64,000 nt of DNA from Acidaminococcus fermentans DSM 20731 (GTDB taxonomy: Bacteria; Bacillota; Negativicutes; Acidaminococcales; Acidaminococcaceae): NCBI RefSeq assembly GCF_000025305.1, contig NC_013740.1, forward strand, positions 1,426,001-1,490,000, read 5' to 3'. Below, piece by piece: positions 3,583-43,220 of the stretch. Each line of letters starts with the position of its first letter. Positions within the stretch are counted from its first letter, which is position 1. The notes under the pieces are model-generated. The model was not told where the DNA came from. It did no database searches and was given only the letters and a program-made list of their open reading frames with translations. Both the position numbers and the translations under genes were made by a program.

Positions 3583-3640
3583 GGAATCACCTCCTTTCCC
3601 CATTTCCATTCCGGAAGGAGGGAGCCAATTCCTTCCCAAG

Positions 3641-3684
3641 TGGAAAAAGAAGGTCATTATTGGGCATTTTACCGGCATGAATGG
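3641..3684. repeat. 44-bp dispersed repeat, copy 1
   Basis: These 44 bp recur with one mismatch, in inverted orientation, at 29217-29260. Here they lie about 60 bp upstream of the GspF-like start. In both copies the strand with GCCGGTAAAATGCCC can be read as an extended -10-like element (TAAAAT). Confidence 0.85.
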
Positions 3685-3689
3685 AAAAA

Positions 3690-3717
3690 GGGGGTGTGAA
3701 AAAACTTTCACACCCCC
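3690..3717 (-). terminator. Rho-independent terminator, GGGGTGTGAAA hairpin family
   Basis: The 11-12 bp arms GGGGGTGTGAAA and TTTCACACCCCC are followed on the minus strand by TTTTTCC. It would end the nrdR/dcw transcript before the pilin operon. Similar hairpins recur at 19432, 39518 and 56409. Confidence 0.85.
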
Positions 3718-3718
3718 C

Positions 3719-3737
3719 GTCAACGGTCAGCTGACAA
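3719..3737. repeat. Heptamer array (GTCAACG type), short
   Basis: Units GTCAACG, GTCAGCT and a partial GACAAAA stand in 7-bp register between two hairpins downstream of nrdR. Confidence 0.7.
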
Positions 3738-29042: not shown

Positions 29043-29145
29043 ACAAAAATAAGCCTTCTCGTCCTAAGACAAGAAGGCTTCTAATAATTGCTTCTGGATA
29101 AAAGTCCCTTTCTTAGTCTCACAGGACTAGGTTAAAAGGTGGTTC
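29043..29145 (-). promoter_or_regulatory. PyrR-type attenuator in the pyr leader
   Basis: The pyr leader RNA contains a PyrR-like binding loop (about 29104-29145; CUAGUCCUGUGAGACUAAG with an AAGG tail). About 30 nt later comes a strong terminator (29043-29080; AGCCUUCUUGUC and GACGAGAAGGCU arms, then AUUUUUGUU). The GUCCU and CUAAG parts of the first loop can pair with UUAGGAC of the terminator, giving the usual antiterminator alternative. UMP-bound PyrR would favour termination. pyrR itself is not in the window. Confidence 0.85.
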
Positions 29146-29160: not shown

Positions 29161-29189
29161 AGTGTAGCACGGGGGGAAAGAAAAGTCAA
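29161..29189 (-). promoter_or_regulatory. pyr operon promoter
   Basis: TTGACT (29184-29189), a 17-nt spacer and TACACT (29161-29166) on the minus strand give a strong sigma-A promoter with its start near 29154, upstream of the attenuator. Confidence 0.85.
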
Positions 29190-29216
29190 GAAGGGAGCTA
29201 TCAGGCTCCCCAAATC

Positions 29217-29260
29217 CCATTCATGCCGGTAAAATGCCCGATAATGACCTTCTTTTTCCA
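29217..29260. repeat. 44-bp dispersed repeat, copy 2
   Basis: This is the inverted copy of 3641-3684 with one mismatch. It lies between the pyr promoter and the Rpn-type remnant. Confidence 0.85.
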
Positions 29261-29637
29261 GTAAAGTTCCTGAACATCCAGATCCGTTCCCTCCAGTACC
29301 AGAGTTTCGAAAAAACCATTGATCTCCGTCTGGAGGGCAAAAGCATCCGCCTGAAGGAAGGTTCGTGGAAAGCCTGGATCAGGAAGTCCATCTTGTCAAA
29401 AGTATGGATAAAGTGAGGCGAGAATATATGATTTTAAGCGATGAAATCAGAAGACGCCAAAAAGAAGCAGCAGAAGAAGGCATGCAGAAAGGCATGGAAA
29501 AAGGCCGTCAAAAAGAACGGGAAGCCAACATCCTGGGCATGCTGAGGGAAAAGATCCCCATGGAAACCATTTCCCGGATCACCCACTATTCCCTGGACCA
29601 GATCCAGAAACTGGGAAAATTGCATGGATTATTGTAG
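29234..29637 (+). pseudogene. Remnant of an Rpn-type (PD-(D/E)XK) transposase-like nuclease
   Basis: Two overlapping frames make up this stretch. One (29234-29416) encodes KFLNIQIRSLQYQSFEKTIDL and ends early. The other (from about 29323, open to 29637) encodes PPEGRFVESLDQEV, MDKVRREYMILSDEIRRRQKEA, a GMQKGMEKGRQKE tail and a final small helical domain (MLREKIPMETISRITHYSLDQIQKL). That charged EG/KG tail followed by a short helical end is typical of the Rpn / PDDEXK transposase-like family. The catalytic N-terminal core is missing, so it is a decayed 3' part. Confidence 0.6.
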
Positions 29638-29640
29638 GTT

Positions 29641-29703
29641 GGAAAACGCCCTGGGCGTTTTCCTTCCGAATGGAAAGGCCGCCGGAGATTCCGGCGGCCT
29701 TTG
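29641..29703 (+). terminator. Two hairpins after the Rpn remnant; the second begins the left direct repeat
   Basis: 29641-29663 forms GGAAAACGCC/GGGCGTTTTCC. 29674-29703 forms GGCCGCCGGA/TCCGGCGGCC followed by TTTGTC. The second is repeated almost exactly at 33157 after the helicase gene. Confidence 0.75.
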
Positions 29704-29837
29704 TCAGCTGTCAACGGTCAACTGTCAACGGCCGATTGACGCCAGATGCTCCGCACTGCCTTTGAACATATCTGCCCCCTGGGCGACTGGGGCGGGACCT
29801 GCAACTATGCGGGGCAACCGGCCTGCGCCCCCTACGG
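29703..29837. repeat. Left repeat block before the helicase (heptamers and CCCCTACGG element)
   Basis: 29703-29740 is a heptamer array of GTCAGCT, GTCAACG and GTCAACT units, then GCCGATT. 29808-29837 is a CCCCTACGG-type element. The array plus the preceding hairpin is a direct repeat of 33157-33213, which has exactly one heptamer fewer. 29838-29969 carries no gene; a TATAAT preceded by TGC (29936-29941) may be the helicase promoter. Confidence 0.8.
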
Positions 29838-29969
29838 TTCCGGTATCGACAGGCCGTGCATCCCGCAGGGCCGTGTCTGACTTCTTACCTAGCCCTTCTG
29901 CCTTTTTCCCCTGCCACCCCCTCCACCATCCATGCTATAATACCCCTATCACCACAGGGAGGCTGGACC

Positions 29970-32900
29970 ATGGACGAATACAAAGACGGACTGTATGAAA
30001 AAGTCATTTCTCAACGACTGGGACGAAAGTTGCAGCAGGCATTGGACAACCAGGAAATCTGGGCCACCATTTCGGACAGGGTAGATCCCCAAGAAGCGGT
30101 GGGGTATTTGTCGGACTATATCCGGAAGCTGGTCCATCTTTGCCTGAAGGACCTGGCGGACCAGAACGGGGACAGCCTGTTGGAACAGGAACTGGCCCTG
30201 ACCAATGGATTGGTCGGCTATCTCACGGAAAAAGCCCCGGCCCTGGCTGCGGATAGCCAGGTGGACCGGGAAGATTTCCTGCTGCTGGAACTTCAGCACC
30301 GGCTGAACCATCTGAAAGAAACCCATCGTCCCCGCCCGGCCACTTCCCTGTCCCATTCATTTCTTTTTACCAACAGCCAGAAAGATGTATCCATGGTGTC
30401 GGAACTCCGGCGAGAAATTGCCTCCAGTGACCGGATCGATTTCCTGGTTTCCTTCATTAAATTTTCCGGTCTTACGCTAATTCTTCCCTATCTCCGGACG
30501 TTTACAGTTGCCGGCGGCCATCTGCGGGTGCTGACCACCACCTATATGGGAGCCACGGACCCTAAGGCCATTGAACTGCTCTCCCAATTGCCCAATACGG
30601 AAGTCCGGATTTCTTACAACGTGAAAGAAACCCGGCTCCATGCCAAGGCGTACCTGTTCCAGCGGAACAGCGGGTATTCCACGGCCTATGTGGGTTCTTC
30701 CAACCTGTCCCATGCGGCCATTGCCGATGGTCTGGAATGGAACATGAAGGTGACCCAGCAGGACATGCCGGAAATCATGGCCAAAATGAATGCCACTTTT
30801 GAAACCTATTGGCATTCTACAGATTTCCAGCCCTATACCTCCCAGGACCTGCCCCAGCTCCAGGAAGCCATCCGTCAGCAGCGGTACCAGGGAACAGCCA
30901 AGGGCAGCGAAGTTTCCTATTCTTTTACCATTCGTCCCTACCCCTACCAGCAGGTGATCCTGGACGCTCTGGACGTGGAACGAAAAGAACGGGGCCGCTG
31001 GCATAACCTGATTGTAGCCGCTACAGGAACGGGGAAAACGGCCATTTCCGCCTTTGATTACCGGCGTTTTGCTGCCAGCCGTCCAGAAGGGGCCCGGTTG
31101 CTGTTCATCGCCCATCGGAAAGAAATCCTGGAGCAGAGCCTTTCCTGTTTCCGGCAGGTGTTGAAGGACCCCAATTTTGGCGAACTGGCGGTGGCGGGCA
31201 GCCGTCCGGAGCACCTGGACCAGGTATTCATGTCCATCCAGACCTGCAACAGCCTTTCCTTGTGGGACCATCTGGAGCCGGATTTTTACGATATGATCAT
31301 TGTAGATGAATTCCACCATTCGGCAGCCCAATCCTACCAAAATCTGCTTCACTGGTTCCAACCAAAAATCCTGCTGGGGCTGACGGCGACTCCGGAACGG
31401 ATGGACGGGAAAGATATCCTCCACTGGTTCGATGACCATATTGCCGCAGAGATCCGCCTCCCGGCGGCCATCGAACGACGGCTGCTGTGTCCTTTCCATT
31501 ATTTCGGGGTGGCGGACACGGTGGATCTGTCCCATGTGAAATGGACCAACGGCCATTACGATACAGGTGCCCTGACCAATCTGTACGTAATGGAATCCCA
31601 TACCGCCAATAACCGGGCCCAGGCCATTCTCCAGGCTGTGGAACGCTACACCGCAGACTGGCAGGACATCCACGGCGTGGGATTTTGCGTCTCCCAGGAC
31701 CATGCCCATTTTATGGCGGACTATTTCAATGACAACGGAATCCCCTCCCTGGCCCTGAATGCCCATTCTTCCGAAGAGGACCGGCAAAGTGCCCGGCAAA
31801 AGCTAGAAAGCGGAGCTCTGACCTTCTTGTTTGTGGTGGACCTGTTCAACGAAGGAGTGGACATTCCCTGCATCAACACCATCCTGTTTTTACGGCCCAC
31901 CAACAGTATGACAGTGTTCCTCCAGCAGCTGGGCCGGGGACTTCGCCTGGACCAGGGAAAAGATTGCCTGACCGTCCTGGACTTTGTGGCCCAGGCCAAC
32001 CGGAAATACGATTTCGCCAGCCGGTTCCAGGCTTTGGTGGGGCGGGAAACAGTTTCCGTTCCCCGGGAATTGAAGGAAGGGTTCCCCCATGTGCCTAAAG
32101 GCTGTTCCATCCAGCTGGAAGAAATTGCCCAGAAACGGGTCCTGGATAACATCCGCTCCCGGCTGCGGGGGGATGCATTCTACCAGGAGTGTATCCGGGA
32201 CCTGTACGAAGCCACTGACCACCAGGTACCCACCCTGACCCAGTTCCTGAAAGCCGCCAATGTAAAGCCCCAAGTCTTTTTCAACGGCAAACGGACCTAT
32301 GCCCGGCTGTGTGCCCAGGCCCAGGTAATCCCGGATTTTCCGGATACCCCGGAAGAAAAAGTATTGGAACGGGCCCTGCCCCGGTTGTTGGGCCTGGATT
32401 CTCCCCACTGGCTGAGCTTTTTGCAACAGGCCTTCCAGGAAAACACCCACCCCGCTGCCCTGGAGCCTGTGGCCCAGCAGTATCTGCGGATGTGGCAGTT
32501 TACCCTGTGGGGTAAAGACTGGCTGGAGACCGGTCTTGCTGACCCCTGGGAAGCAGTAACCCTGTGGAAAAAGACCCCGGAACTGGCCCGGGAGATTCAG
32601 TCCGTACTGGCTTTCCAGTTCGACCAGTTCACCGTGCTGCCCCAAAAGGCCCGTCTGCCCTATCCCTGCGCTCTGGAAGTATACTGCAATTATTCCCGGG
32701 ACCAGATTTTTGCGGCCCTGGGCCTGGCCAAACCCAACAGCGTCCGGGAAGGAGTGAAATACCTGCATCAAAAAAACAGCCAGGTAGTTACCCGGGATAC
32801 GGATGTATTCCTGGTCACGTTGAACAAATCCGAAAAAGAATTCTCCGAATCCACCCGGTACGAAGATTATTCCATCAACGACCGGCTGTTCCATTGGCAA

Positions 32901-33155
32901 AGCCAGAACGCCACCACCCCCGATTCCCCCACCGGGCAGCGGTACATCCACCAGCGGGAAAAAGGAAATATTGTGCTGCTGTTCGTTAGGGAACAGAAAA
33001 AAGACGCCCAGGGCACATCCCAGAATTACACCTTCCTGGGAACCGCCCAACTCTCCAGCTGGAGCGGCAGCCAGCCCATTACCATCCTCTATCACCTGGA
33101 CAACCCCATCCCGGCCAAGTATATTACTACTACGGATAGCAGTGGGGTGTTGTGA
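29970..33155 (+). CDS. PLD-nuclease / DEAD-like helicase / DUF3427 protein
   Basis: A 1061-aa multidomain protein. About residues 130-290 form a phospholipase-D-like domain with RLHAKAYLF (HxK near residue 224) and GSSNLSHAAI. The helicase core follows: Walker A AATGTGKTA (about 349-357), IVDEFHHS (about 445), LTATPERMDG (about 470) and QQLGRGLRL (about 653). The C-terminal third is DUF3427-like, with REKGNIVLLFVRE and an adjacent FLGTAQ. ATG 29970 follows AGGGAGG. The family occurs as single genes in bacteria and may act on foreign or damaged DNA; a defence role is inference. It is bracketed by direct repeats and has no methylase partner. Confidence 0.88.
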   Translation: MDEYKDGLYEKVISQRLGRKLQQALDNQEIWATISDRVDPQEAVGYLSDYIRKLVHLCLKDLADQNGDSLLEQELALTNGLVGYLTEKAPALAADSQVDREDFLLLELQHRLNHLKETHRPRPATSLSHSFLFTNSQKDVSMVSELRREIASSDRIDFLVSFIKFSGLTLILPYLRTFTVAGGHLRVLTTTYMGATDPKAIELLSQLPNTEVRISYNVKETRLHAKAYLFQRNSGYSTAYVGSSNLSHAAIADGLEWNMKVTQQDMPEIMAKMNATFETYWHSTDFQPYTSQDLPQLQEAIRQQRYQGTAKGSEVSYSFTIRPYPYQQVILDALDVERKERGRWHNLIVAATGTGKTAISAFDYRRFAASRPEGARLLFIAHRKEILEQSLSCFRQVLKDPNFGELAVAGSRPEHLDQVFMSIQTCNSLSLWDHLEPDFYDMIIVDEFHHSAAQSYQNLLHWFQPKILLGLTATPERMDGKDILHWFDDHIAAEIRLPAAIERRLLCPFHYFGVADTVDLSHVKWTNGHYDTGALTNLYVMESHTANNRAQAILQAVERYTADWQDIHGVGFCVSQDHAHFMADYFNDNGIPSLALNAHSSEEDRQSARQKLESGALTFLFVVDLFNEGVDIPCINTILFLRPTNSMTVFLQQLGRGLRLDQGKDCLTVLDFVAQANRKYDFASRFQALVGRETVSVPRELKEGFPHVPKGCSIQLEEIAQKRVLDNIRSRLRGDAFYQECIRDLYEATDHQVPTLTQFLKAANVKPQVFFNGKRTYARLCAQAQVIPDFPDTPEEKVLERALPRLLGLDSPHWLSFLQQAFQENTHPAALEPVAQQYLRMWQFTLWGKDWLETGLADPWEAVTLWKKTPELAREIQSVLAFQFDQFTVLPQKARLPYPCALEVYCNYSRDQIFAALGLAKPNSVREGVKYLHQKNSQVVTRDTDVFLVTLNKSEKEFSESTRYEDYSINDRLFHWQSQNATTPDSPTGQRYIHQREKGNIVLLFVREQKKDAQGTSQNYTFLGTAQLSSWSGSQPITILYHLDNPIPAKYITTTDSSGVL

Positions 33156-33156
33156 G

Positions 33157-33343
33157 AAAAGGCCGCCGGAACTCCGGCGGCCTTTGTCAGCTGTCAACGG
33201 TCAACGGCCGATGAAAGGAACCTGGAACCAGGTTCCCATGGAAAGGCCGTGCATCAAGCGGGCCGCCCGGCGTGCGGCCCCTACGGGCAGGAGAATACGT
33301 CTGAACCGGCCTTGGCGGGGCAACCGGCCTGCGCCCCCTACAG
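33157..33343. repeat. Right repeat block after the helicase (terminator, heptamers, two CCCCTACGG elements)
   Basis: 33157-33187 is a terminator hairpin GGCCGCCGGA/TCCGGCGGCC with TTTGTC just after the helicase stop. 33186-33213 is a heptamer array with GTCAGCT, then two GTCAACG, then GCCGATG. 33260-33287 and 33314-33343 are two CCCCTACGG-type elements in the same orientation. No gene is seen in 33156-33387. Confidence 0.82.
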
Positions 33344-33377
33344 CATTGCAATGGACGATCCGCCCCCGCCGTCCTGC

Positions 33378-33398
33378 TCTTCCCTCTTCACTCTTCCT
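33378..33398. repeat. Heptamer array overlapping the M20 hydrolase stop codon
   Basis: Units TCTTCCC, TCTTCAC and TCTTCCT (GAAGAG type on the coding strand) in 7-bp register; the stop codon 33388-33390 is inside. Confidence 0.7.
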
Positions 33399-34732: not shown

Positions 34733-34830
34733 ATCGTTGGTCGTTCATCGTTCATCGGGTTCCCGCCGTCCCGCTCTTCCCTCTTCCCTCTTCACTCTTT
34801 TCTCTTCACTCTTTACTCTGCATTCTTCAC
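34733..34830. repeat. Two heptamer arrays between the M20 and DUF4127 genes
   Basis: 34733-34757 carries ATCGTTC-type units. 34775-34830 carries eight TCTTCCC/TCTTCAC/TCTTTAC-type units in perfect 7-bp register, the longest array in the window. The stop codon and last codons of the DUF4127 gene (34813-34830) fall in it. Confidence 0.85.
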
Positions 34831-43004: not shown

Positions 43005-43220
43005 GTCGTTCATCGTGAATCGTTCATCGTGAGTCGTTCATCGTGAGTCGTTCATCGAGGGGGGCCGCCCGGCGTGCGGCCCCTACGGTCCCGATGATCC
43101 ATCGTCAATGCCGCAGGGGCTCCACAGCCGGGAGCCCGTCCTGGTTATTTCGCCCGAAGGGCTGTCCGTCCCCTGCAAGGGGCGGGGGACCGTCCGTCAG
43201 GACGGTGGTGGGGTTCGGCC
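43005..43220. repeat. Repeat-filled gap upstream of nfnA (heptamers, CCCCTACGG and GGGGACC elements)
   Basis: 43005-43058 is a heptamer array alternating GTCGTTC/ATCGTTC and ATCGTGA units (also readable as a 14-bp period). 43061-43088 is a CCCCTACGG-type element (GGCCGCCCGGCGTGCGGCC core). 43152-43220 is a GGGGACC element (CCCCTGCAAGGGGCGGGGGA, GTCCGTCAGGAC stem, GGTGGGGTTC). No gene is seen in 42987-43237. Confidence 0.85.

Follow-up and report, generated by a model that had tools for sequence, protein, structure and literature searches.

Many bacterial genomes contain more heptamer repeats than expected, an excess left without an explained reason in PMC4692102. Intergenic heptanucleotide repeats have been described in cyanobacteria (Calothrix, Nostoc), in Xanthomonas (GGGAATC) and in Beggiatoaceae (TAACTGA), and the roles discussed for them are slippage, G-quadruplexes and translation, not the ends of elements (PMC4692102, PMC4679880). 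Among the proteins that act on bacterial recombination, the recombination-promoting nuclease (Rpn) RpnA promotes RecA-independent recombination (PMC5350276). For Acidaminococcus, no earlier description of the repeats reported here was found in a literature searched mostly outside subscription papers, and the type-strain genome paper (PMC3035267), as far as a keyword search of it reaches, does not mention them. Acidaminococcus harbours a small palindromic repeat that hugs terminators and is scattered in well over a hundred copies. It came to light at one locus, where two copies of its end bracket a helicase gene.

The window analysed is a stretch of 64,000 nucleotides of the Acidaminococcus fermentans DSM 20731 genome (G000; 2,329,769 bp), which was compared with the draft genomes of eight congeners, among them G001, G003 (A. 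massiliensis) and G005-G008. A gene encoding a PLD nuclease, an SF2 helicase and a DUF3427 domain (29970-33155, + strand) stands between two composite blocks. The left block (29674-29736) consists of the hairpin AAAGGCCGCCGGA-gat-TCCGGCGGCCTTT (29674-29702), four heptads on the + strand, GTCAGCT GTCAACG GTCAACT GTCAACG (29703-29730), and GCCGAT. The right block (33158-33212) has the hairpin AAAGGCCGCCGGA-ac-TCCGGCGGCCTTT (33158-33185), so that the loops of the two hairpins are unlike, followed by three heptads, GTCAGCT GTCAACG GTCAACG (33186-33206, + strand), and GCCGAT. The sequence-only reading had seen the same block on either side of the helicase, the left copy with exactly one heptamer more, and sequence and repeat search bear out both points; the additional unit is GTCAACT. 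It had also seen similar elements behind both blocks, which holds as well: on the left lies CCCCTACGG (29809-29837, + strand), a piece that resembles the core of the dispersed element and carries CCCCTAC (29809-29835), and on the right the repeat search found two core-like pieces with the same motif (33258-33284 and 33315-33341, together 33258-33341, + strand).

Further repeat sequence surrounds these features. The right array runs into a cap, GCCGATGAAA, and a subterminal hairpin, GGAACCTGgaacCAGGTTCC (33207-33237, + strand), a module typical of the ends of the dispersed element, and GGGCCGTGTCTGACTTCTTACC (29868-29889, + strand) resembles, by eye, the end of the repeat by which the A. massiliensis helicase is flanked. 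Heptads of another kind, CTCTTCC CTCTTCA CTCTTCC, form an array (33377-33397) that overlaps the 3' end of the gene for an M20 peptidase. No inverted heptad array can be recognised as the partner of either block, and both are therefore read as partial copies of the element. Taken as a whole, the analysis indicates that the blocks are very probably two independent copies of an element end and not the ends of a cassette.

About 32 bp are identical in the two blocks, which have the same orientation and lie about 3.5 kb apart. From the matching flanks a cassette of roughly 3.5 kb had been proposed that is gained or lost by homologous recombination between them. Comparison with the congeners places the variable unit elsewhere. 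To its left lies the pyrimidine operon pyrB-pyrC-carA-carB (- strand, pyrB first; NCBIfam) with its PyrR-binding leader (29045-29143, - strand; Rfam RF00515, at the gathering score), and to its right the M20 peptidase gene (- strand; profile match). In G005, G006 and G008 pyrB and the M20 gene are adjacent; the conserved sequence ends at 29189-29190 and restarts at 33386-33398 (blastn), with about 8 bp (G008), about 65 bp (G006) or 200 bp (G005) between the conserved flanks. The missing segment is thus about 29190-33387 (blastn boundaries 29189/29190 and 33386/33388 against G005 and G008, with gene adjacency), and the roughly 4.2 kb peculiar to A. fermentans comprise a truncated Rpn gene, the helicase between its two blocks and the core-like pieces. 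Sites that lack the helicase do exist, as the proposal had envisaged, and none of the eight congeners carries the gene between pyrB and the M20 gene, so that its variable presence is real; the breaks, however, do not fall at the blocks, and the variable unit is wider than the proposed cassette and takes in the Rpn remnant.

Two further comparisons bear on the flanks. The likeness of the left and right blocks is far above chance but not private to that pair, as the genome-wide counts of the heptad pattern and of the hairpin given below show. When 132 array blocks of the A. fermentans sample were ranked in 8,646 pairs, the pair scored 46.6 and came 93rd. The flanks are not each other's nearest match, an outcome that the sequence-only reading had itself named as counting against a cassette. 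The left block is most similar to a block at genome position 1389758 (score 67), which stands behind an intact Rpn gene, and the right block is closest to that at 1843196 (score 49). Bracketing as such equals the chance frequency, with 10 same-strand array pairs at most 5 kb apart in the listed part of the genome against 8.6 expected from a random layout. G007, moreover, has the 3' end of an Rpn gene and the same hairpin, followed by CGTTCAT-like sequence, with neither GTCARCN heptads nor the helicase. The boundaries, the ranking and the bracketing statistics led us to reject flank recombination as the origin of the locus; as an account of helicase gain and loss it is highly improbable in spite of the shared direct repeat and the relatives that lack the gene at this site. 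A rare deletion between the blocks is possible in principle, given the 32 bp that they share. The helicase is variable at this locus by another route.

The protein combines PLD, SF2 helicase and DUF3427 domains in one chain (Pfam) and matches the PADLOC model mREase_IV (PDLC03659) with 733 bits; it is predicted to be a SauUSI-like type IV restriction enzyme, a type characterised by cutting only 5mC/5hmC DNA. Like SauUSI, it has an N-terminal PLD nuclease, an SF2 helicase and a C-terminal domain in a single chain, a likeness of domain order. Scattered presence is expected of defence genes. Homologues occur in most of the congeners at other places, adjoining bcp/yaaA in A. massiliensis and at yet another site in G005, and in these two species they are bracketed by different, species-specific repeats, which makes bracketing look like a general property of such intergenic DNA. 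The helicase gene may have been gained at a variable locus beside a decayed Rpn gene, or may have been kept here while it was lost or moved in the relatives, and its position between two element ends is of the kind expected by chance in repeat-dense intergenic DNA. It is important to point out that repeat-bracketed genes in genomes of this kind should not be called cassettes on the strength of bracketing.

Upstream of the left hairpin lies a 3' remnant of an Rpn gene of about 90 codons (29365-29637, + strand; TIGR01784, C-terminal match), with full-length relatives in A. fermentans itself, G003 and G007. Akin to RpnS (PMC10327210), the remnant retains the C-terminal region with four-residue repeats; unlike Rpn genes with an intragenic antitoxin, it has this part alone left. 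A hairpin of the type GGCCGCCGG (GGCCGCCGGA..TCCGGCGGCC) occurs in six copies in A. fermentans and seven in G007, and a genome pattern search found none in the seven other congeners; 8 of these 13 copies immediately follow Rpn genes. The truncated Rpn gene has the left hairpin as its terminator, one of the terminators of this gene family.

Beyond the window, heptads were surveyed in 40 stretches of 20 kb distributed over the A. fermentans genome which, together with the window, amount to 864 kb or 37% of the genome; genes were called there with a simple home-made caller, and patterns were counted genome-wide alongside. An unbiased scan of the 864 kb found 70 period-7 arrays in intergenic DNA against 1.0 in shuffles, and none of the other periods from 4 to 15 was comparable. 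The pattern GTCARCNGTCARC has 250 matches in the genome, where its reversed control has 2, and 117 in G007, 76 in G003, 13 in G001 and 1-3 in each of the remaining congeners. GTC or GAC is in phase in 53 of 62 arrays, the remainder being of the CTCTTCN/GTGMAGA or CGTTCAT type. Most arrays have the form (GTCNNNN)2-4 and are often capped by GCCRAWGGAA, more loosely in some copies, with a small hairpin behind the cap in many. Read upstream from the cap, without GTC being required, in-phase GTC occurs in 34, 31, 27, 19 and 2 of 52 cases at units -1 to -5; GTC in any other phase is almost absent. The capped module GTCN4GTCN4GCCRAWGGAA occurs 73 times in A. fermentans, 74 times in G005, 36 times in G007 and 25 times in G003, with 0-1 copies in other congeners and three in a further 241 genomes from the same class. 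The four filler bases vary between arrays (ARCN, ACTA/TCTA, CGGA-like, AATG); among the matches listed, those of G005 are mostly ACTA/TCTA, so that the genomes have the module in common but differ in its filler.

The sequence-only reading had taken the two window blocks as direct evidence that heptamer number changes one unit at a time. Whole-unit change is real, and it is better seen at orthologous arrays elsewhere, which differ between A. fermentans and G007 by 3 versus 2 units at 1563388 and 4 versus 2 at 556398; closely similar copies have 3, 4, 5 or 18 units. The number would change by slippage or by unequal recombination between units. It might be argued that the heptads are nothing but ordinary simple-sequence repeats that slip during replication beside hairpins and belong to no element. 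For the heptameric repeats over-represented in bacterial intergenic DNA an origin by slippage has been suggested (PMC4692102), and the differing orthologues, the array of 18 units and the homogenised fillers (2.97 of 4 bases agree within an array, against 1.96 in shuffles) all fit it. Slippage by itself, however, would not be expected to give a GTC phase and a cap that stay constant across differing fillers, orthologous sites that have or lack an entire element, or fillers matched at two separated inverted ends: in 31 convergent array pairs the ends agree at 2.79 of 4 filler bases against 1.80, and 0 of 2000 shuffles reached the observed agreement. The sharp fall in unit number beyond four also speaks against it. 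This explanation is accordingly judged quite unlikely. A constant 7-bp register, varying filler and matching ends point to constraints of recognition or pairing rather than to slippage alone, and Acidaminococcus is a culturable organism in which such constraints can be tested.

In complete copies the opposite end has an array in inverted orientation, and the whole forms a palindrome of about 130-300 bp at a terminator. In the dispersed element as we describe it, each end comprises (GTCNNNN)2-4, the cap GCCRAWGGAA and a small hairpin, and the heptad arrays of the two inverted ends can form the base stem of the palindrome. For a typical copy, taken together with the hairpins that flank it, the predicted fold has -176 kcal/mol (z -12.5), and its base stem consists of the two arrays. 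The main core is present in about 20 near-complete copies, 87-97% identical, among the matches listed in A. fermentans. The elements are neighbours of gene terminators and in many cases abut the hairpin or its A/T tract: 37 of 56 arrays have a hairpin no more than 12 bp to their 5' side, against 3 of 100 control positions.

Position and folding could also be accounted for at the level of RNA, if arrays and hairpins act together as terminator or attenuator modules that bind a protein in a 7-nt register, or as stabilisers of transcript 3' ends, and were dispersed by selection. The strong folding agrees with this, as does the location of arrays at gene 3' ends (52% of the intergenic regions between convergent genes contain arrays, against 23% of the tandem and 14% of the divergent ones). 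Against it stand the freedom of the sequence to vary between elements and the many orthologous sites without a counterpart, 23 of 33 being absent in G007. Rfam covariance models gave no match to the elements, the hits being to PyrR leaders alone, in five loci; a known RNA family was rejected on this ground, and the lack of a match also speaks against an RNA role of this kind, which we regard as unlikely. A reading of the arrays as Rho-utilisation sites, with UC every 7 nt, was set aside because they usually have 2-4 units.

The comparison of A. fermentans with G007 shows that the two species differ in which orthologous sites hold an element. It comprises 23 arrays without a counterpart, 10 with one, 5 found in G007 only and 85 sites with neither, and arrays co-occur in the two genomes more often than expected (p = 7e-4). 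At 1485175 A. fermentans has half an element between a stop codon and the A tract of the terminator, where G007 has the terminator alone. At 179069, 255 bp made up of an element and a new hairpin separate an older hairpin, one arm of which has decayed, from its T tract, and the G007 site is empty; the arrangement at 1999508 is similar but has no core. No target-site duplication was seen by eye at 179069, and the insertion at 1485175 lies in an A tract. At sites that no outgroup polarises, the direction of change is presumed. The elements may spread as small non-autonomous elements by means of an enzyme supplied in trans, and transposition-like spread with a replacement terminator would produce the configurations seen. 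Tentatively, and as a possibility more than a probability, we envisage genus-specific mobile palindromes whose ends are read by register and not by sequence (GTC every 7 bp and four matched free bases) and which insert at terminators. In places they would enter between hairpin and T tract and bring a replacement hairpin, which would leave the host gene with a terminator.

As to the enzyme, no transposase, autonomous copy or parent transposon with heptad ends appeared in the module list, in 37% of the A. fermentans genome or in five G007 contigs, in a search for paired ends that reached up to 600 bp between arrays. Rpn nucleases might themselves drive dispersal by RecA-independent joining at terminators. 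The heptad count follows the Rpn count over nine congeners (Spearman 0.84), the GGCCGCCGG terminator is an Rpn terminator, and RpnA has the recombination activity cited above. The correlation, however, rests on nine genomes, of which the array-rich ones are probably one clade, and G005 combines 74 cap-bearing modules with two Rpn hits. Escherichia coli carries Rpn genes, too, and we know of no such arrays there. A driving role of Rpn nucleases is thus very doubtful.

The dispersed element represents a repeat family for which no previous report was found, and a variant of the kind formed by bacterial heptamer repeats and MITEs. Like REP elements mobilised by RAYT (Y1) transposases, it is a hairpin-bearing, dispersed intergenic unit that often occurs in inverted pairs; unlike them, it is abundant in G007, with its 117 heptad matches, where the Y1 transposase model PF01797 has no match (one in A. 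fermentans), and mobilisation of the RAYT/REP type was rejected for G007 for this reason. It shares with MITEs and BIMEs a short, non-coding, palindromic structure, many copies, empty orthologous sites and modular cores, and departs from them in that no transposase with matching ends was found in the DNA searched and no clear target-site duplication was seen by eye. Its termini are variable heptad arrays, in contrast with the fixed inverted repeat of such elements. The likeness to the heptameric repeats of other bacteria lies in tandem 7-bp units, few per array, which are intergenic, lineage-specific, present in several sequences per group and variable in length by whole units. Unlike those repeats, the arrays of Acidaminococcus have a constant GTC and four further bases that change from element to element, and they stand with a fixed cap at both inverted ends of a palindrome beside terminators.

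Bracketing has a second instance at locus L067, where a near-identical pair of terminator-plus-array blocks shares one orientation and is separated by about 1.7 kb (genome coordinates 486414 and 488141). In both A. massiliensis and the congener G005, other dispersed repeats are found on either side of the helicase homologue (loci L100 and L099): GAAGTCAGAC..GTCTGACTTC in the former and the unit CCACCRT..GGTCCCCCTTCCC in the latter.

The heptad array of one element, at genome coordinates 1568665-1568800 (locus L084), contains 18 units, alternating between GTCACTA and GTCTCTA, whereas closely similar copies of this element carry 4. At many sites of the genome (900345, 968510, 1384103, 1386510, 1557064 and 2281521) stand copies of a compact element of GTCACTA type that hardly differ from one another across some 100 bp, upstream hairpin included. 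Further heptad classes lack GTC, namely CTCTTCN and CGTTCAT/CGTGAGT (window 33377-33397, 34734-34800 and about 43040-43070), and are likewise located close to gene ends.

To the left of the Rpn remnant, the fragment TTTTTCCAGTAAAGTTCCTGAAC... (window 29191-29350) is another dispersed gene remnant; part of its neighbouring sequence recurs near window 3600-3720. The Rpn remnant itself (window 29365-29637) retains the 4-residue repeats EGMQ KGME KGRQ in its C-terminal part and may be an orphan antitoxin. In E. coli, the corresponding C-terminal part of Rpn is translated separately as the RpnS antitoxin (PMC10327210).
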